Below, piece after piece: positions 17,114 through 32,443 of a DNA stretch of 32,443 bases. The stretch lies in assembly GCA_016210565.1 (NCBI GenBank), contig JACQUA010000136.1:1-32443 (forward strand), in the 5' to 3' direction. Source of the DNA: Chloroflexota bacterium. GTDB lineage: Bacteria > Chloroflexota > Dehalococcoidia > JACQUA01. Below the pieces are notes generated by a model. It had not been told where the DNA came from. It did not search any database and saw only the letters and a list, made by a program, of their open reading frames with translations. The position numbers and the translations under genes are program-made. The first letter of the stretch is position 1; the number at the start of each line of letters is the position of its first letter.

Positions 17114-18217
17114 TCAGCGAACCGAAGATTCCTTTTCGAGCAGGTCTTCTTTCAGTCTTATTCCCCAACGATAACCACCTGGACTACCATCTTTGCGCAC
17201 TACGCGGTGACAGGGCACCAGAATTGCTAACGGGTTGGTAGCGCATGCCCGGGCTACGGCTCGCGTCGCTTCCGGACGACCAATCAAGCATGCTATCTCG
17301 CTGTATGAGCGCGTAGTACCATACGGGATCGACATCAAGACATCCCAGACTTTGCGCTGAAAATTGGTACCATTCATGTCTAGCGGTAGCCTCTGATTTG
17401 TTAGTTTGCCCTCAAGATAATTAAGAATATCGTCGATCGACTGACGGATGTGCCCTTCGTCACGCTGAATCCTCGCATTAGGGAATTCTCCTTTGAGAAA
17501 GGCTTCCAGGTCGGTATCCGAATGACCAAGACCGAGCGCACATATCCCGTATTTTGTGGCTCCCACTATTACTCTCCCGAGGCTGCAATGTGTGAGACCA
17601 TATGTGATTTCCATTCCTCGCCCCCCTCGTCGATACGCGCCGGGAGTCATTCCGAGATGCACTTTTGCACGCTCATAAAGGCGACTAGTCGACCCATAGC
17701 CAGCGTCATAGAGAGCGTCTGTAACACTTTCACCCGCACGGAGTTGAGCCTTTAGTCTGCTAATGCGGCACGATTCTGCATACTGTCGCGGGGTTATTCC
17801 CGTGCAACGTCTAAATGTTCTCTGTAGATGATATCCGCTGAGGCTAAATCTCTTGCTTAGAACTGCTAGTATAACACGCTCATCTGGATTATTCTCAATC
17901 CAATCACAAACGCTTCGAACTATTTCGGACTCGGGTGGAACTGCCTTCTCAGGCTGGCAACGACGACAGGCACGGAAGCCTGCTTGCTCGGCGTCACTTG
18001 CTGTAGAAAAGAAGACTACCTGGATTCGATGGGGAAGCCTGGCAGAACAGTATGGTCTACAATAAATTCCGGTGGAACGGACTGCATACACGAAGTCAGC
18101 ATCTCGGCCATCTCGCCTCTGCACGATTTGCCACCGTTGATCATCTGTCATCTTAGGATCTGTCTTCGTGTTCGGGTTAGCTGTAGCCATTACTATCTCT
18201 AAGATTGTTGGATTCAT
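17114..18217 (-). CDS. ada: Bifunctional Ada: methylated-DNA methyltransferase and AraC-type regulator
   Basis: A 367-residue DNA-alkylation repair protein. The N-terminal domain has C53-x3-C57 (STGIYCRPYC) and C84-x2-C87. These four Cys have exactly the spacing of the Zn/methyl-acceptor cysteines of E. coli Ada (38, 42, 69, 72). An AraC-type HTH region follows (SGYHLQRTFRRCTGITPRQY and YGSTSRLYERAKVHLGMTPGAYR). The C-terminal O6-methylguanine transferase has MNGTNFQRKVWDVLMSIPYG and PCHRV with C336, again matching E. coli C321 in spacing. The self-methylated protein activates its own repair regulon. ATG 18217 has no clear ribosome binding site; ATG 18190 (after TTAGAGATAGTA) would give 358 residues. 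It is more AT-rich than its neighbours. Confidence 0.93.
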   Translation of the reverse strand: MNPTILEIVMATANPNTKTDPKMTDDQRWQIVQRRDGRDADFVYAVRSTGIYCRPYCSARLPHRIQVVFFSTASDAEQAGFRACRRCQPEKAVPPESEIVRSVCDWIENNPDERVILAVLSKRFSLSGYHLQRTFRRCTGITPRQYAESCRISRLKAQLRAGESVTDALYDAGYGSTSRLYERAKVHLGMTPGAYRRGGRGMEITYGLTHCSLGRVIVGATKYGICALGLGHSDTDLEAFLKGEFPNARIQRDEGHIRQSIDDILNYLEGKLTNQRLPLDMNGTNFQRKVWDVLMSIPYGTTRSYSEIACLIGRPEATRAVARACATNPLAILVPCHRVVRKDGSPGGYRWGIRLKEDLLEKESSVR

Positions 18218-20276: not shown

Positions 20277-20373
20277 AGTTGTCTCCTAACCCGGACAAAG
20301 CCGGTAATTCAAAGTATCAAGTTCCAAACGACTTGGAAGCCCCTATTCGATTTTGCCACGGAAATGCCTGCTG

Positions 20374-20400
20374 CCCACCGTAGGGGCGAACCTATGTGTT
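20374..20400. repeat. CCACCGTAGGGGCGAA repeat fragment
   Basis: CCCACCGTAGGGGCGAACCTATGTGTTCGCCC forms a short hairpin (GGGCGAAC/GTTCGCCC). It shares CCACCGTAGGGGCG with the hairpin at 27424-27500. It lies in the 190-bp gap upstream of ubiD. Confidence 0.55.
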
Positions 20401-20467: not shown

Positions 20468-20683
20468 TCATGCCACACCGATATCGGCAAAGTCAGCTAA
20501 GTTGTGCTGCCAGAGCGCCAGTCCCCCAAACGCAATGCGCACTCTTCCCCTAAAGTCCGGCCTTCCAACTTCTTTAGCCCGCATCAGCAGATCTCTGTTA
20601 GGGTCATAATCAATAAGATAGACAACGACTTCAGTTTCAGTGATGTCAGGCTTGATGGGAAAAAGTGCTAGCCTCTTTACCAA
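20468..20683 (-). CDS. Possible small protein overlapping the 3' end of the AAA+ gene
   Basis: A 71-codon open frame beginning at TTG 20683, overlapping the AAA+ gene end by 38 bases in another frame. Its later part is protein-like (EVVVYLIDYDPNRDLLMRA, GRVRIAFGGLALWQHNLADF), with alternating hydrophobic residues. GAAGG lies 3 bases before the TTG, which is too close for a good ribosome binding site. It could be a third gene of the helicase/AAA+ operon translated by coupling, a fragment of a lost gene, or chance. No family was recognised. Confidence 0.35.
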   Translation of the reverse strand: MVKRLALFPIKPDITETEVVVYLIDYDPNRDLLMRAKEVGRPDFRGRVRIAFGGLALWQHNLADFADIGVA

Positions 20684-23600
20684 AAGCCTTCAGTGCACTC
20701 TTGTCCCTTATTACCTCTGACAAAGCGGTAGCGAGAGCCTCATATGCGTTTTTGTTAGGGCTATCTGCAATCTCATAAGCCGCTCTCTTAGCAGCAAGAG
20801 CAAGGTCCGCTCCGCTTAAACAATCGTGGAGGTCACCCTGGACCTTCTCTGCGGAGAAGACCTTCTGCTGTATTTCTGGTTTGCTGATTAAAGCTTGTAA
20901 TTTATCGTTATCCCAGGATTTGTCATCTGACCCTCTAACAAATCTCTTCATGTGAAGCCTCAGGATCTTTACTACCTCTTCCTTCCCAGGAGGGTAAAAT
21001 TGTACCCGTTCATCGAATCTTCCCGGTCGCACCAGAGCTTTGTCGAGGTCTCCTGGCTTATTTGTTGCGCCAATAATCGTAACATTAGTGAGTTCCTGCA
21101 TGCCGTCCAATTCTGCCAGTAGGACAGATAAAACACTTCTCGTTGCTCTACTCTCCTCAGAATCTCTGGAAGGCGCAAATCCATCGAGTTCATCTATGAA
21201 CACAATGACTTGTTTCCCTGCTGCCGCCAACTCTCGACTGAGTGTGAAAACCTCCCTCAAGTTTTTTTCGCTTTCGCCCACGTACTTGCTGTATATCTGG
21301 GGCGGTGTCAGGTAGATGAAGTAGCCCCCTATTCTCGACGCTATGAATTTGGTCAAAAGCGTCTTGCCTGTTCCTGGTGGACCGTAAAAGAGGATCCCGC
21401 GCGCCGGACGAAGATCTGGTGAGCGCTTGTATGGGAAAATTGCCCTCTCGACCTGTCTCTGAATTTCCGGTGAGACTACGACATTTTGTTCGTCAACACG
21501 GGGAATTTCAATGGTCAAGAACTGCGGAAGGGAAGCCTTATATTTCTTGGCGATTTCCAAAGGTGTCGATGCCTGCGTCTTCTGGGTTGCCTTTTCTATT
21601 TCTTGCTTGATACCTCTCGCCAAGACAACGAGATCCCTATAAGTGAACCCTTGAGTGTTCTTGGCGAGGTGGGCTGTCTCATCTGACGAAATGTCAAGAC
21701 CGTAGATGTCCATGAACATCTCCACCGACTTGCTATCCACACTTTGAAGCCCTCCAAGCTCTCGTTTCAGCACTTCAGTTCTGAGTTTCATAAAGAAGTG
21801 TTGCCGCTCGTCGAGTCCGGGAGCAATAATGACCCTTCGGTGCGGGAAGAATTGAAGCAAAGCCTCAGGAACACTGTTCAGACTGTTGGCCTCGGCAAGC
21901 ACACCGATCTGGTAATCGTACCGCTCAAACATCTGCCGGAAAAAGTCCTTTAGCACTGCTGTGACCTTTTGAGAATCGGCCAAGGTGGCGGTTGACATCT
22001 CTTTTTTTTCCGTAAGAGCGTCAAGATCCTTGATAACGAGAACATAAGGGCCATTCTTGCTTTTTAGTAGAGCATCCTCTGTATACATCCTGCAAAAGTC
22101 CACCAAGGGAACACGGCCATCGATCACCTCGGTGATTGAAATCTCCTTGACGGCACATGGTTTACCCCTCTGCACTAGTTCACGCCGCAACTTTCGGACC
22201 TCAAGAGCAATGTGTGTTGATTTTCCACAGCCGGGCAGCCCATGGAATAACAGGGTGAAGGGGCGAAGACCATCTTCTACGATGTAGCTATCAGCTTCCA
22301 ACTCTAGCTCAATTTCCTTGAGGAAAACTGAGAAAATTAATTCATCGAAGGAGTGGAGTTCTTTTTCACGCTCTCTCTCTTTCTTAGCTTTTTGTTCTTT
22401 CTCCTTGTCAATTTGCTGCTTAGCCTTTGTTTCCCGTGATCGGAGTAGCTCCTGCAGGACGCCACGTTGCTCGATGGGCTCTTCGAAGTCTTTATCTAGA
22501 GTCTCAGAAGCCCAATGTGAAACTTGGCCAACCTGCGACAGTGCTGACACAATCTTCTCCCTGGATACATCTATGACTGTCCCCCCCTCTGCCACAAATT
22601 TGTGAAGCGAAGAATAGCCCTCTTCTAAACTCTTATATGGATTTAGCAGCATTCCGGTTACTACTACCGTCTCGGCCGTAGCTACAGGAATATGCTCCGA
22701 GGTAATAGACTTCAGACCTTCGTCTAACCCGCTAACGGAAACATAGTTCTCAGATGAACCATCGACCTGGAGTGCAGGGGCAACAATTAGTGTGTAGAGC
22801 TTGCCAGCTATGTTCGCCTTGAAAACTCTTGATGTGTTCATTTGGCTCTCGATTGGGATTCCCTTATTCCTCAGTCTTTCAACCAGGATCTCATACTCAG
22901 ACTTGAACCAATCGGAAACCGTAATGTGCCCGACGTCTGTTAGCCACACTTTCCCGTCGCTGCTACAAGTGAAAACATTAGCTCTCAGCAAAGCTTCCAC
23001 TCCCAGATTATGCTGCTGTCCCCGAAGTGCGGCAAACCATTGGTCTAGCTTTGTAGACTGCACAGCGTCCCTGGCATCTTTCAAAAGCTCTCCCTGGTTC
23101 TTACCCGTAAGCACATTCCACACAGTATTGGCGTCTTCTCTCTGTAGGCTATCAGGATGTTCAAATAGTGCCATGAGCGTTCCTGATGAATCAGATGATG
23201 AGAAGATGCAGAACGATTTGCGGAGCTTTCTGTAAGTAGGGAGATTAACGCCCAAAATTACGAGGTATGCTGCAAAGCTACCCTTTGCCGGCGAAGGGAT
23301 GGCGATCGTGGTTGCCAGCGGCTTGCCAATCATGAGATGAAGCACGCCTCTCTCAAAGTTGGACAGGCCGGCGTAGTCTTCTGCTATTTTCTGTTCTGTT
23401 TCTTCTACCCATTTGTTCGGAGAAAAGATTTCTACCAGGGCCGTCCTAACGAATGTGTCCTTCACCCACACACTTAGTGCGGGCGGTTTTTGTCCAGAAA
23501 GAAAACCCATTTGAAAGAGGCTTTCGAATGTTTTCAATCCCACAAGATCCGAGGCAATTAACTGATCTTCAGCGTTCCACTGGACTCGCTTTTCTGCCGC

Positions 23601-25022
23601 TCGTTCCAGAAAGAAAATCGCCGCTAAATCATTGTTAGTGAGCAACTTGTGAAACGAACTCTTCAAAATTGGGGCAACCGACATTCCTAGCTGGTCATGA
23701 GAGAAGCCCAGGTCAAATCCTGACAGGATGGAGAAGTTCTCGAATAAGTCCCCTGGATTGAGCGATGGCTCAACTTTGGCCAGGGACACAACAAACCTTT
23801 GTACGGGTTCGTCCACCTGTTGCAGAGTGGTCTGTTTTTGAAGCAGCGCTATGATTTCTATCGCGCTACGGTGCTGTTGCACGAACTTCTGCCGCACCTC
23901 CCTCTCTGTTCTATCCAGCATATAAAGGTCGCCCCTAAAGTCGCTAATGAGGGGGATCTTCAAGCTGACCTCGTCGCCCGGTTGAATATCGCCACGGAAG
24001 ACGCGCACCACTTCGGCTGTTGATACCTCACTGGTGGCAAGCCCTGCAAGCAACATCTCCTCCATTTCCTCTTTCGTAAATCGAGCTTTGAATAGACCAA
24101 TCAAGTCATCTTCAAATAAGATAACGGTCTGTTTACCATAAACCGCAAATATCAACAGCTCACGGAGAGCATTCCTTTCTTGTTCCGATGGAAGTGGCAC
24201 TGTGCCTCGTCCGACCTTCTTCGCCGTTAAGACCTTGGGAAGAAGTACTCGCAGTGGTAGCTTAACATACTCTGGGCTACTCGCTATCTTGCTAAAAGTC
24301 TCGCTCTGCTTCAAGTGCAGGCTGTTTTCTACTTGCCTATTGGCCATTTCCGCGACTTCCCCTCGGAAGAACCAATCGAGAACCATAGTCTCGCCGTCCG
24401 ACTTGAATAACAGCCCATGTCTTTCCAGATGCTTAAGGGAAGCCATGTCGACGAAATCAACGGGAACACCTTTTTGAAGAAATAACGCCAATTTTGCGAC
24501 CTCGGCGGTTATCTCCTGTCTCCGCGTCGCCTCCAGAAGCGGGTTGACTGTCCCTTGGGCCTCGTGAAAGTCCACCGCACGGGAGGATGGCTTAACGACT
24601 TGGCGCCAGTAAGTTTTAGGGCTGGCACTTGACTCATGCTCCCTGACAATGAAGCCATCTTGCTCAAGGTTTTTGAAGATTGATGTCACCAGTACATAAT
24701 TGGATTCGTAATCCTTTGACCCCAGACAAATTAGTGTAGTGAGACGCAAGAATGACTCGGTATCGGGTGACGACTTATCCTCTCCCCTTTTTGCAACCGG
24801 CCGTATTTCGTTGAGCAGCCATAGAAACTGTTTCTCTAACGGGCTCAGCGGACGCCCAGGAGTGGGTCCTATAGTAACCCTCTGCTCTCGTGAAGTCTCT
24901 TGTAGTCTCTCGGCTTCACGACGCAAATCTTCTCTAATTCGTACGATTTCAGCCGGTACCGAAGCCTGTACCTCCTCTGTCTCTTGTTGAGTTGGAAATC
25001 TCTCTCTCTCTATCATTGTCAC
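20646..25022 (-). CDS. Giant double-AAA+ ATPase with ~900-residue novel N-terminal region
   Basis: A 1458-residue protein. GTG 25022 directly abuts the helicase stop codon; ATG 25016, 9 bases behind GGGGG, is an equally good start. Residues ~1-860 match no family I know; the early part is acidic and coiled-coil-like. A charged helix (KEKEQKAKKEREREKE) precedes AAA domain 1, which has Walker A GLPGCGKS near 927 but only a degenerate Walker B (VLVIKDLD near 993). AAA domain 2 is classical, of CDC48/FtsH/proteasome-ATPase type: GPPGTGKT near 1212, YVGESEKNLREVF, Walker B VIVFIDELDGF near 1271, GATNKPGDLDKALVRPGRFDERV. It probably remodels protein or nucleoprotein complexes together with the helicase. 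The AT-rich composition suggests acquisition. A defence or DNA-transaction role is inferred from this pairing. Confidence 0.88.
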   Translation of the reverse strand: MTMIERERFPTQQETEEVQASVPAEIVRIREDLRREAERLQETSREQRVTIGPTPGRPLSPLEKQFLWLLNEIRPVAKRGEDKSSPDTESFLRLTTLICLGSKDYESNYVLVTSIFKNLEQDGFIVREHESSASPKTYWRQVVKPSSRAVDFHEAQGTVNPLLEATRRQEITAEVAKLALFLQKGVPVDFVDMASLKHLERHGLLFKSDGETMVLDWFFRGEVAEMANRQVENSLHLKQSETFSKIASSPEYVKLPLRVLLPKVLTAKKVGRGTVPLPSEQERNALRELLIFAVYGKQTVILFEDDLIGLFKARFTKEEMEEMLLAGLATSEVSTAEVVRVFRGDIQPGDEVSLKIPLISDFRGDLYMLDRTEREVRQKFVQQHRSAIEIIALLQKQTTLQQVDEPVQRFVVSLAKVEPSLNPGDLFENFSILSGFDLGFSHDQLGMSVAPILKSSFHKLLTNNDLAAIFFLERAAEKRVQWNAEDQLIASDLVGLKTFESLFQMGFLSGQKPPALSVWVKDTFVRTALVEIFSPNKWVEETEQKIAEDYAGLSNFERGVLHLMIGKPLATTIAIPSPAKGSFAAYLVILGVNLPTYRKLRKSFCIFSSSDSSGTLMALFEHPDSLQREDANTVWNVLTGKNQGELLKDARDAVQSTKLDQWFAALRGQQHNLGVEALLRANVFTCSSDGKVWLTDVGHITVSDWFKSEYEILVERLRNKGIPIESQMNTSRVFKANIAGKLYTLIVAPALQVDGSSENYVSVSGLDEGLKSITSEHIPVATAETVVVTGMLLNPYKSLEEGYSSLHKFVAEGGTVIDVSREKIVSALSQVGQVSHWASETLDKDFEEPIEQRGVLQELLRSRETKAKQQIDKEKEQKAKKEREREKELHSFDELIFSVFLKEIELELEADSYIVEDGLRPFTLLFHGLPGCGKSTHIALEVRKLRRELVQRGKPCAVKEISITEVIDGRVPLVDFCRMYTEDALLKSKNGPYVLVIKDLDALTEKKEMSTATLADSQKVTAVLKDFFRQMFERYDYQIGVLAEANSLNSVPEALLQFFPHRRVIIAPGLDERQHFFMKLRTEVLKRELGGLQSVDSKSVEMFMDIYGLDISSDETAHLAKNTQGFTYRDLVVLARGIKQEIEKATQKTQASTPLEIAKKYKASLPQFLTIEIPRVDEQNVVVSPEIQRQVERAIFPYKRSPDLRPARGILFYGPPGTGKTLLTKFIASRIGGYFIYLTPPQIYSKYVGESEKNLREVFTLSRELAAAGKQVIVFIDELDGFAPSRDSEESRATRSVLSVLLAELDGMQELTNVTIIGATNKPGDLDKALVRPGRFDERVQFYPPGKEEVVKILRLHMKRFVRGSDDKSWDNDKLQALISKPEIQQKVFSAEKVQGDLHDCLSGADLALAAKRAAYEIADSPNKNAYEALATALSEVIRDKSALKAFGKEASTFSHQA

Positions 25023-27212
25023 TTACCCCCTAACTTGCGATTCCATCGTCATTTCGGAAATCATCTCGGTCATGATTCTTGTAATGGTTTTCTTGTCAAA
25101 CTCACCTTCAAAGGTTTGATTGCACCTTGGCAGGATAAGTTCATCTGTCGGAGCATCAAGCAGATTCAAAGCACAGGCAAGAAGGCGGTCTGCTCTCAGC
25201 AGCAAGTGGGTGTCGCCCCAGGAAGACTCATAGAGCAGTATTTTGTTGTCAAAGCCATCGGCAGCAATTATGTGGACGTAGTTATTCAAGGGGATCGAAA
25301 ATTCCTCACGCATGGCATGCACCAAGACGTGAACAGCGAGTTCACACTCCTCTTCGGTTGCAACTTTCGCTTCGTAGCCGAAGCAATTTGTGTAAAGTGG
25401 AAGCTCAGGGACAGGCTTAACAGGGTGCCATCTGATCTTTCTTGGTTTATTCTCCGTAGCTCTGTATATGTTTACCGTATCTGGTCTAAGCCGGACCTCA
25501 GAGAATGCACCGTGCAGCTTATTGACAAACACAGCCTGCGTATCAAAGCGAACTCTCGAGAAGATTATGCCTTTTCCTATTTCATCAGCAATGTTGGCGT
25601 ATGCTGAGTTCTCTGGACTGCGAAGGTAAATCTTCAGGTCAGGGTCAGGCACAGCAGGATACTTGGACCAGCCTCCCACTACATAGGGTGAGCCGTCAAC
25701 CTGCAAAATACAACCCGGCAACCCTGCTCTCACCGCTTCGCTATATGACATTTCATCTAGGACGTTGCCCTCGTAAAACAAAGGCACCCGGCCGAAGCCA
25801 TAAAAAGAGAGATTTTGGAACAGCTTCTCACCATTGAGCGTCGGCTCTATTCTTGAAGGCAAGCTATCACCCATCATGTAATCAGTGAAATCTATAGAGG
25901 ATTTCAGCCACCCGAGTTTCGTAGCCACTCTAAGGGTCTCATCCTCGAGAGGAAGGTCGTAGATGGCGCAGTAAAATCCATCAAATAGAGTTGCAGCCAT
26001 CGATCTCACTGGTAGAGCGGTTGCTTCAGTAGGCATAGAAATGAATTTCTGATAGCGTTCGCTACTTCGAAGGATTGCTCTATCCCAATTGCCGTTCGAC
26101 ATCAGGACAGATTCAGCTTGCTTTTGTTTGGGGAGGCGTCCCTTCCGGCCTTCCCTTTGCCAGAATTCTGCCACCGTCTCTGGAAGGCCAACATGCACCA
26201 CCCGAGATATCTTACCTACGTCGATACCTTGCTGAAGTGTCTTGCAGGTAAGACACACTCTGGCTTCACCTTGCTTGAGGCTATTTTCCGCTTCTTGACG
26301 CTCGTCAATCCCCAGGGACCCATGATGTCTCACTACCCGGCGGTTATTCAATGATCCAACAGAGTTGTACAAGCTATCTGCCAAGCTCCTGTATGGAAGA
26401 AAGACGAGAGTAGAACCTTCGTCCTCGCTGTATATGCCAATCAATCTTTTGAGAAGCGTAACCGGGTCCTCTACCTGATCGGTTATTCTGTAGCGGCGCG
26501 CTGGCGCAGCCACAGTCTTGCCCTCAACATGAATGAACGGTCTTTTCAACCAACTGCAGGCCACTTCACACACGTGTTTAGGGTTCCCCAGAGTGGCAGA
26601 CAACAGAATCACCTGTGGGGTTACGCCCTTCTTTCTCATGAGGTTGAAATAAGATAAGAGGAGCGACCACTGAAAGGAGGAATAAAGATGAACCTCATCA
26701 ATCACGAGAAATCTAATATTGTTGAGGAATGTCGCAAAGGGGGTAGAAAACTTTAGATGTTCAATGAGCATCTGCGGATTAGTCAATACGATTTCCGAAC
26801 ATGAAACTTCAGACTTCCGCTTCGGGTTGTCCGCATCAAAGCGGCAAGTGGAATATCCGTAGAAGTATTTCCCCAGCCTTTGCCACTGATCGTTTGCAAG
26901 CGCTTTGGTAGGATAAAGAAATACCACTTGGCACGGTACCTTAGCTGTTATGCCGTTCTTGGCCAGTATTCCAAGGCAGGCTGCTTCAGTTTTTCCCGAG
27001 GCCGTTCCCGAGGTGAGCAGGACATTTTCTCCTGAGAGAATCAAGTCGGCCGTTTCCGCCTGGTGTGAGTAGAGAGCAAGGTCGGGAATGGTTGTTGCGC
27101 CGTAATTCGCTACCCGCCTCCCTTTGGAATCGAGTCTTGGCTCGCTGCCAGGTATATCTTCAACCTCGAAAGCAAGACCCAACGAATTAAGAATTTCATT
27201 TGAAGCGAGCAT
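25023..27212 (-). CDS. Superfamily 2 helicase, Hrq1/YprA-like
   Basis: A 729-residue ATP-dependent helicase starting at ATG 27212. Motifs in order: Q-like LYSHQ (47-51), motif I TSGTASGKTEA (GK at 73-74), Ia PTKALANDQ (101-109), II DEVH (172-175), III SATLG (205-209), IV LVFLPYR, V TCKTLQQGIDVG, VI QREGRKGR (352-359). The LYSHQAE...GTASGKTEA pattern is that of Hrq1/YprA(MrfA)/Lhr-like 3'-5' DNA helicases. The C-terminal region (ELAVHVLVHAMRE, LLYESSWGDTHLLLRADRLL) looks like a DUF1998-type domain that has lost its zinc-binding cysteine cluster; only one Cys remains in ILPRCNQ. The AAA+ gene starts immediately after its stop. No nuclease domain is visible. It probably unwinds DNA in a repair or defence complex. 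Confidence 0.9.
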   Translation of the reverse strand: MLASNEILNSLGLAFEVEDIPGSEPRLDSKGRRVANYGATTIPDLALYSHQAETADLILSGENVLLTSGTASGKTEAACLGILAKNGITAKVPCQVVFLYPTKALANDQWQRLGKYFYGYSTCRFDADNPKRKSEVSCSEIVLTNPQMLIEHLKFSTPFATFLNNIRFLVIDEVHLYSSFQWSLLLSYFNLMRKKGVTPQVILLSATLGNPKHVCEVACSWLKRPFIHVEGKTVAAPARRYRITDQVEDPVTLLKRLIGIYSEDEGSTLVFLPYRSLADSLYNSVGSLNNRRVVRHHGSLGIDERQEAENSLKQGEARVCLTCKTLQQGIDVGKISRVVHVGLPETVAEFWQREGRKGRLPKQKQAESVLMSNGNWDRAILRSSERYQKFISMPTEATALPVRSMAATLFDGFYCAIYDLPLEDETLRVATKLGWLKSSIDFTDYMMGDSLPSRIEPTLNGEKLFQNLSFYGFGRVPLFYEGNVLDEMSYSEAVRAGLPGCILQVDGSPYVVGGWSKYPAVPDPDLKIYLRSPENSAYANIADEIGKGIIFSRVRFDTQAVFVNKLHGAFSEVRLRPDTVNIYRATENKPRKIRWHPVKPVPELPLYTNCFGYEAKVATEEECELAVHVLVHAMREEFSIPLNNYVHIIAADGFDNKILLYESSWGDTHLLLRADRLLACALNLLDAPTDELILPRCNQTFEGEFDKKTITRIMTEMISEMTMESQVRG

Positions 27213-27423: not shown

Positions 27424-27500
27424 CCACCGTAGGGGCGCGGTCACCGCGTCCGGCGGGGGGCGCCACCACCCCGGGCGAGGAAACCTCGCCCCTACGGTGG
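27424..27500. repeat. CCACCGTAGGGGCG inverted repeat
   Basis: CCACCGTAGGGGCG (27424-27437) and its exact reverse complement (27487-27500) flank a GC-rich centre containing GGCGAGGAAACCTCGCC. It lies in the divergent/tail gap between the helicase promoter and the CoA ligase end. It shares its core with 20374-20400. Confidence 0.75.
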
Positions 27501-27521
27501 GCCAACTCGGCTCGTTTGCTT

Positions 27522-30556: not shown

Positions 30557-30575
30557 TGTTGCTCCTTTCAGCCGT

Positions 30576-30647
30576 CATTGCGAGCGAAGCGAAGCAATCT
30601 CCCGATGGTCCAGTCAACCAGGGGATTGCTTCGCTTCGCTCGCAATG
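30576..30647. repeat. Perfect 24-bp palindrome (CATTGCGAGCGAAG family)
   Basis: Arms 30576-30599 and 30624-30647 are exact reverse complements around a 24-base loop. The arm begins CATTGCGAGCGAAGCGAAG. It sits between the flavoprotein stop and the CapA start and could fold in the mRNA. No T-tract is present. Confidence 0.85.
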
Positions 30648-30656
30648 AACAGCATC

Positions 30657-32142: not shown

Positions 32143-32443
32143 TGTCACCCTGAGCCGATAGCCTGAGCGAAGCGAAGGCGCAGGCGAAGGGTCTTTCGCC
32201 TCGCACTTCGCCCCAAAGGATTCTTCGACGGCGCTCGCTGCGCTCGCTTCGCTCAGAATGACAGGCTATTCAGGCATTTTCATTGAGCCGATAGCCTGAG
32301 CGAAGCGAAGTCGCAGGGGAAGGGTCTTTCGCCTCGCACCTCACCCCAAAGGATTCTTCGACGGCGCTCGCTGCGCTCGCTTCGCTCAGAATGACAGGCT
32401 ATTCAGGCATTTTCATTGAGCCGATAGCCTGAGCGAAGCGAAG
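32143..32443. repeat. 133-bp tandem repeat of the TGTCACCCTGAG family, cut by window end
   Basis: The first unit begins TGTCACCCTGAGCCGATAGCC; GAGCCGATAGCCTGAGCGAAG then recurs at 32152, 32285 and 32418, exactly 133 bases apart. Units differ by few substitutions and contain GGATTCTTCGACGGCGCTCG and CTTCGCTCAGAATGACA. Two full units and a partial third are visible. Confidence 0.85.

Follow-up and report, generated by a model that had tools for sequence, protein, structure and literature searches.

The 32,443-nucleotide contig JACQUA010000136.1 of a Chloroflexota bacterium (class Dehalococcoidia; assembly GCA_016210565.1), analysed here over its whole length and hereafter called the window, carries on its minus strand a helicase gene followed head to tail by a gene for a giant protein with two AAA+ ATPase domains, both frames being intact. 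We put at roughly even odds the prediction that this helicase–AAA pair is an undescribed two-gene defence module against invading DNA, akin to the BrxHI–BrxD and Shango dyads and a member of neither. A defence role is favoured because the helicase is related to BrxHI, SngC and YprA, because its partner is an AAA+ protein, because the pair is rare, patchily distributed and deviant in guanine-plus-cytosine (GC) content, because the AAA+ protein has a fast-evolving arm that may be a sensor, and because defence-type genes accompany the pair at L024, a locus on a contig of an uncultured, Geobacter-assigned metagenome-assembled genome. A more specific proposal, which falls a little short of even and is offered tentatively as a picture of the immune machine, gives the zinc-less YprA/BrxHI-like helicase another kind of partner: in place of the ORC/Cdc6-type ATPase would stand a CDC48-type double AAA+ ring whose DNA-sensing arm evolves fast, with a TM0106 nuclease as optional effector. 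Excerpts of the open-access literature (PubMed Central, PMC), on which all statements cited below by PMC identifier rest, yielded no description of such a pair.

The helicase and AAA+ proteins

The two genes and their parts lie as follows, in window coordinates:

27212..25023, minus strand: superfamily 2 (SF2) helicase gene, 729 aa, intact reading frame (open reading frame (ORF) list and Pfam)
26043..27077, minus strand: helicase core, residues 46-390 (Pfam DEAD 49-210 and Helicase_C 253-360)
25026..26042, minus strand: helicase C-terminal region, residues 391-729, without Pfam match; predicted MrfA-like fold, zinc cysteines missing
25014..25031, minus strand: gene junction, AGGGGG TAA GTGACA ATG (printed sequence)
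20646..25016, minus strand: giant tandem-AAA+ gene, 1456 aa from the likely ATG at 25016 (ORF list)
22383..25016, minus strand: N-terminal region of the AAA+ protein, to residue 880, without Pfam match; AlphaFold2 model with mean pLDDT (predicted local distance difference test) 80.6 and pTM (predicted template modelling score) 0.56; fast evolving
24558..24857, minus strand: predicted winged-helix-like piece, residues 56-155
21528..22370, minus strand: AAA+ domain D1, residues 885-1165; Walker A GLPGCGKS/T, Walker B without DE
20703..21527, minus strand: AAA+ domain D2, residues 1166-1440; intact Walker A, FIDELD Walker B, TN sensor, R-x-GRF

The original prediction, made from the letters of the window, had a 1458-residue protein following the helicase with zero spacing. 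Both ORFs are as it described them, and the longer AAA frame (25022..20646), read from the GTG at 25022, does give 1458 aa. The ATG at 25016 is the more likely start; it is the start in the homologues P0004 and P0005 and in the protein's own database entry (P0003, 1456 aa), and a ribosome-site-like AGGGGG inside the 3' end of the helicase gene lies 9 nt ahead of it. Because this ATG is the likelier start, a 6-nt gap rather than zero spacing separates the two genes. As predicted, Pfam found two AAA stretches in the giant protein and no nuclease or methylase domain in either protein. The candidate promoter that had also been proposed was not recovered, a scan for the sigma-70 consensus giving 0 sites upstream of the pair (mean of 0.1 in shuffles), and terminator scans returned nothing clearly above chance (one terminator-like site against 0.5 expected; none in a second scan). 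A 71-aa open frame (window 20468-20683, minus strand) overlaps the AAA gene at its 3' end, in a different frame, and may be a gene remnant or chance.

The helicase carries the full set of motifs SGTASGKT, DEVH, SAT and QREGRKGR. Its nearest solved structure by sequence is MrfA/YprA (6znp), found with a profile of six family members that covers MrfA residues 56-455, i.e. the core, and the model of the whole protein matches MrfA 6znq by Foldseek (E 1.7e-32, TMq 0.65, root-mean-square deviation 7.3, 780 columns), the alignment behind that model having included three rows with an MZB domain, a possible bias. The YprA part of the description of the helicase as Hrq1/YprA-like can be kept for its SF2 core and MrfA-like overall fold, MrfA/YprA being the closest solved relative by sequence and Foldseek alike, and must be given up for the DUF1998/MZB domain, whose four-cysteine cluster defines the YprA family and is lost in Dpd (PMC12458937). 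That zinc cluster is missing from the C-terminal region: 0 of 6 helicase members match MZB at E up to 5, and across the same six members Cys501 and Cys697 are the only invariant cysteines in residues 391-729. PADLOC, which was run on 6 window proteins, placed BrxHI (145 bits) and SngC (131 bits) at the top for the helicase, with models that cover only residues ~47-371 of the 729.

The AAA+ protein is of the tandem CDC48 type in its ATPase part, a profile of its 8 members matching VCP-like structures in two stretches (E 1e-103), and a CDC48 N-domain was not recognised, residues 1-880 being without Pfam match. The Walker B of D1 reads K/Q-D-L/I-D in place of the DE pair in all 8 aligned members, with Walker A kept. 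D1 is the best-conserved domain among close members and comes behind D2 in distant ones. The N-terminus diverges much faster, with identities over its first 440 residues of 60, 54, 35 and 16-18% vs 82, 74, 66 and 37-39% in D1, a contrast that might fit a sensor engaged in an arms race. Profile and structure searches of the N-terminal region (Pfam, PDB sequence and Foldseek) gave no known family, so that it stays as unrecognised as it had been at the outset. At the other end of the protein, IetA models of PADLOC match the D2 region (best 110 bits, residues ~1134-1388 only). PADLOC searches with the 8 AAA members, at E values of up to 1, brought up no Shango model, the presence of an SngB model in the library being unconfirmed.

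Rarity, transfer and pairing

Against 5.8 billion proteins, residues 1-900 of the AAA+ protein returned its own entry and at least two others, and residues 850-1165 returned eight matches including its own entry; close relatives of the helicase among the matches listed were P0007 (83%), P0008 (67%), P0009 (59%), P0010 (55%) and P0011 (33%). The helicase search and that with residues 1-900 scored the best candidates by shared words. Of 393 genomes sampled from the class and 400 from the phylum, one in each set, its own genome, has the N-terminus together with D1, and the pair is thus not a universal housekeeping locus of its lineage, a possibility that the original prediction had named as one that would refute it. 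In the phylum of the L024 bin the same query matched at full length in 1 of 395 genomes, with two more weak matches of 90-95 residues. Among 60 relatives, 59 match as generic AAA proteins, and among the matches listed all but the own gene begin at query residue 1143 or later. A scan of 84,980 species with two short peptide patterns, which misses relatives without both and may omit the own genome, gave 78 loci; one was full-length, namely L024, and the other 77 match the AAA part only (query residue 854 onward). ORFs were listed for four of these loci (L024, L074, L084 and L085). No match to the N-terminus and D1 was found in 50,697 phage and 72,556 plasmid records (searched with the AAA query and not the helicase), and relatives of either protein were likewise absent from the viral contigs covered by four scans.

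The base composition of the pair is also unusual. GC content is 0.485 in the helicase gene and 0.486 in the AAA gene, below every one of 89 ORFs sampled from the genome (mean 0.605, sd 0.036; ORFs of at least 250 aa picked mechanically from 20 stretches, ~203 kb), and the block as a whole lies at 0.47-0.50 vs 0.54-0.66 in most neighbouring segments, in agreement with its original description as more AT-rich than its neighbours. Deviant GC and patchy distribution together are how the transferred cassette proposed there would behave, and compositional and phyletic signals alike suggest that the pair was likely acquired horizontally.

The pair has been read directly from DNA in two loci, the window and L024. 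At L024 a WYL regulator, the helicase (55%), the AAA+ protein (46-48%) and a TM0106-type gene follow one another on one strand, in the gene order of the window and with a helicase–AAA gap of 22 nt. Contigs of equal size point to three further pairs, P0004/P0007 (10609), P0005/P0008 (14737) and P0127/P0011 (6745), the last of which is the most diverged from the window, at 28% overall AAA and 34% helicase identity (~33% for the helicase by protein search). The L024 helicase and AAA+ protein recur as P0010 (100%) and P0126 (99%), which were not counted a second time, and P0009, P0128, P0129 and P0130, which have no known partner, stand outside the five-pair set. Over the five pairs the helicase and AAA identities correlate at r = 0.994, a value that no other of 120 permutations reaches in what is a set of five taxa only; the two proteins were therefore most likely inherited or transferred together.

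The third gene of L024 encodes a 1135-aa protein of the TM0106 family, a nuclease plus superfamily 1 (SF1) helicase with an RNase_H_2 domain (TIGR03491, 188 bits, cut-off 97). About 2 kb past it lies a PD-(D/E)XK gene that matches the PADLOC candidate PDC-S26 (370 bits), and ~13 kb before the helicase the contig holds a HindVP-type restriction enzyme and a C5 methylase (type II restriction–modification); a second WYL gene and a further AAA gene are also present. In the genome of the window, the only match to the TM0106-type protein is a 48-residue P-loop stretch. Elsewhere on the L024 contig (3280-6457; L126 12941-16118), an FtsZ/tubulin-like gene of 338 aa sits between two genes with weak DSP-phosphatase matches, and neither the FtsZ-like protein nor the 491-aa DSP-like protein has a PADLOC match.

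A possible defence module and its alternatives

Neither BREX nor Shango nor the system described in PMC11090510 is, by its full definition, a fit for the pair, and the partial character of all its PADLOC matches bears out the earlier statement that it could not be matched to BREX, DISARM, Zorya, Druantia, Hachiman, Dnd/Ssp or Dpd. In type 2 BREX, BrxHI and BrxD form a tightly linked dyad in which a loader role for BrxD has only been proposed, BrxD being a stand-alone ORC/Cdc6-type ATPase (PMC12839542). The window pair likewise links an SF2 helicase to an AAA+ ATPase, with BrxHI as the best match of the helicase core; its ATPase differs in being of the CDC48 type, tandem and extended by ~880 residues, and PglX, PglZ, PglY/BrxC and PglW were found in 0 of 19 window and 20 L024-contig proteins. 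Shango combines a TerB-like protein, an ATPase and a DEAD/DEAH helicase and is anti-phage (PMC10250203). It shares with the pair an ATPase and a helicase, SngC being the second-best PADLOC match of the helicase (core only), whereas SngC is the only Shango model among the PADLOC matches and Pfam found no TerB among the same window and L024 proteins. A CDC48-like ATPase beside a conflict system, with the full Walker set in its second domain only (PMC11090510), resembles the giant protein in its tandem AAA+ build and in the placing of its full Walker motifs; D1 of the window protein differs in keeping Walker A, and 0 of the 19 window proteins scanned is a McrBC/CoCoNuT gene product.

The MrfA/YprA family (MrfAB, DISARM, Druantia, ARMADA and TALON) contains the closest solved relative of the helicase, and the pair departs from it in having no MZB/DUF1998 domain or four-cysteine cluster, no methylase, no second helicase and no nuclease; an MrfB-type exonuclease is absent beside the window pair. 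IetAS is alike in that IetA models match the D2 region and unlike in that these models, 262-395 residues long, cover only ~1134-1388 of the AAA+ protein. IetAS includes a protease partner, and none of that kind was seen by Pfam beside the window pair.

If the pair acts in defence, recognising or gripping the DNA would fall to the AAA+ protein, which would also load the helicase or gate it. Its N-terminal region, in which the model places one winged helix and perhaps more, may bind nucleic acid; D1 would bind ATP, turn it over poorly and serve mainly as structure, D2 being the working ATPase, and by analogy with CDC48-type ATPases the protein may form a ring. Such a ring would deliver the helicase to foreign DNA, where helicase action would block replication or expose ends to nucleases. 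Because no nuclease is encoded with the pair in the window, host nucleases would be needed to finish the job; in the Geobacter-assigned L024 locus the adjoining TM0106-type gene could supply one. If this is true, the pair would be a compact two-gene dyad built on a different class of ATPase, small enough for the way in which an ATPase serves a helicase to be studied on two proteins alone, and it would be a further rare system that PADLOC matches only in part.

Several observations weigh against a defence role. The nearest solved relative of the helicase, MrfA, is a repair helicase, and the neighbours of the pair in the window are catabolic genes and an Ada-like repair gene, with no recognised defence genes elsewhere in the window (Pfam on 19 proteins, four of them without any match; PADLOC on 6). 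The neighbourhood argument comes from a single contig, the one other readable locus (1 of 1) having defence-type genes on it, and other genes on that contig have no defence-like character (MBL-fold, TPR, bifunctional-nuclease/Clp_N and FtsZ-like). Three of the five pairs rest on equal contig size and not on DNA that was read. The absence of matches from phage, plasmid and viral records may be listed here too, yet it neither supports nor excludes defence.

Some of these points feed the principal rival, that the two proteins are a DNA-repair pair in which the helicase would act on damaged DNA as MrfA does, the AAA+ protein would be its loader or remodeller, and an exonuclease-bearing partner at L024 would be to the pair what MrfB is to MrfA. 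MrfA is the top solved relative by both sequence and Foldseek, MrfA acts in repair as a helicase and MrfB as an exonuclease (PMC11194089), the YprA family has repair-related members in one of its main branches (PMC12458937), the TM0106-type gene of L024 carries an RNase_H_2 domain, and 2.4 kb downstream of the pair, past a UbiD gene, there is an Ada-like gene for alkylation repair whose GC is similarly low. Set against these are the extreme rarity and patchiness of the pair, which are unlike those of repair genes, the restriction and candidate defence genes on the L024 contig, the absence of the DUF1998 zinc cluster from the helicase and the lack of any mention of an AAA+ partner for MrfAB in the excerpts consulted, and we regard a repair role as rather unlikely, though as a serious rival in view of the MrfA relationship and the RNase_H_2 domain at L024. 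Less probable again is a nucleoprotein or protein remodeller, with a CDC48-type ring that would unfold proteins or strip them off, as from nucleoprotein complexes that are stalled or foreign, and a helicase that would clear nucleic acid, RNA or DNA: the top Foldseek matches of the whole helicase are MrfA chains, and neither readable pair has a protease gene as its direct neighbour. That an integrated mobile element once used the two genes for its maintenance or replication, and that they are all that is left of it in the window, appears very improbable. The deviant base composition and the interspersed repeat copies that bracket the pair (CACCGTAGGGGCG, with 3 of 19 copies within 300 bp of its ends, and GCCCACCGTAGGGGCGA, found nowhere else) speak for it; 0 integrases, transposases or relaxases among the 19 window proteins (Pfam; four without match) and the lack of a match in plasmid and phage records or viral contigs speak against it.

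Repeats and neighbouring genes

Two further features of the window flank the pair:

20373..20389, plus strand: 17-nt interspersed-repeat copy downstream of the pair, a perfect inverted match to 27486-27502
27424..27500, no strand assigned: repeat hairpin upstream of the pair, 35-nt arms, 80% complementary; same interspersed repeat

The repeats around the pair were looked for after the pair had been seen. CACCGTAGGGGCG has 19 copies in the 6.53 Mb of the genome, 3 of them no more than 300 bp from the two ends of the pair (1 copy for a backwards control), and the inverted match of the 17-mer GCCCACCGTAGGGGCGA occurs at these two sites only in 6.5 Mb. Because contig C198 has a similar close inverted repeat arrangement, the repeat belongs to a small genomic family, and a role for it in the insertion of the pair is only a suggestion. 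As a candidate empty site we considered the nearest sampled relative (same family, other genus), in which a DctM transporter gene takes the position of the AAA gene next to a UbiD orthologue (78%); 0 of 9 other window proteins tried match its 4.7-kb contig, which therefore records absence at that place and not an insertion point.

The Ada-like gene (Ada Zn-binding, AraC HTH and O6-MeG methyltransferase; window 17114-18217, minus strand), with a GC content of 0.505, is the sole other among 17 window ORFs tested to fall below all 89 sampled ORFs. The genome (G000) holds many UbiD-family paralogues, with at least 16 matches from an initial 100 candidates, 16 of which were scored. Beyond the pair, an intergenic hairpin at window 30575-30648 has 28-nt arms that are 96% complementary and belongs to another repeat, TCATTGCGAGCGAAGCGAAG, and the contig end at 32151-32443 is a tandem 133-nt repeat, made up of two complete copies, 97% alike, plus the first part of another.
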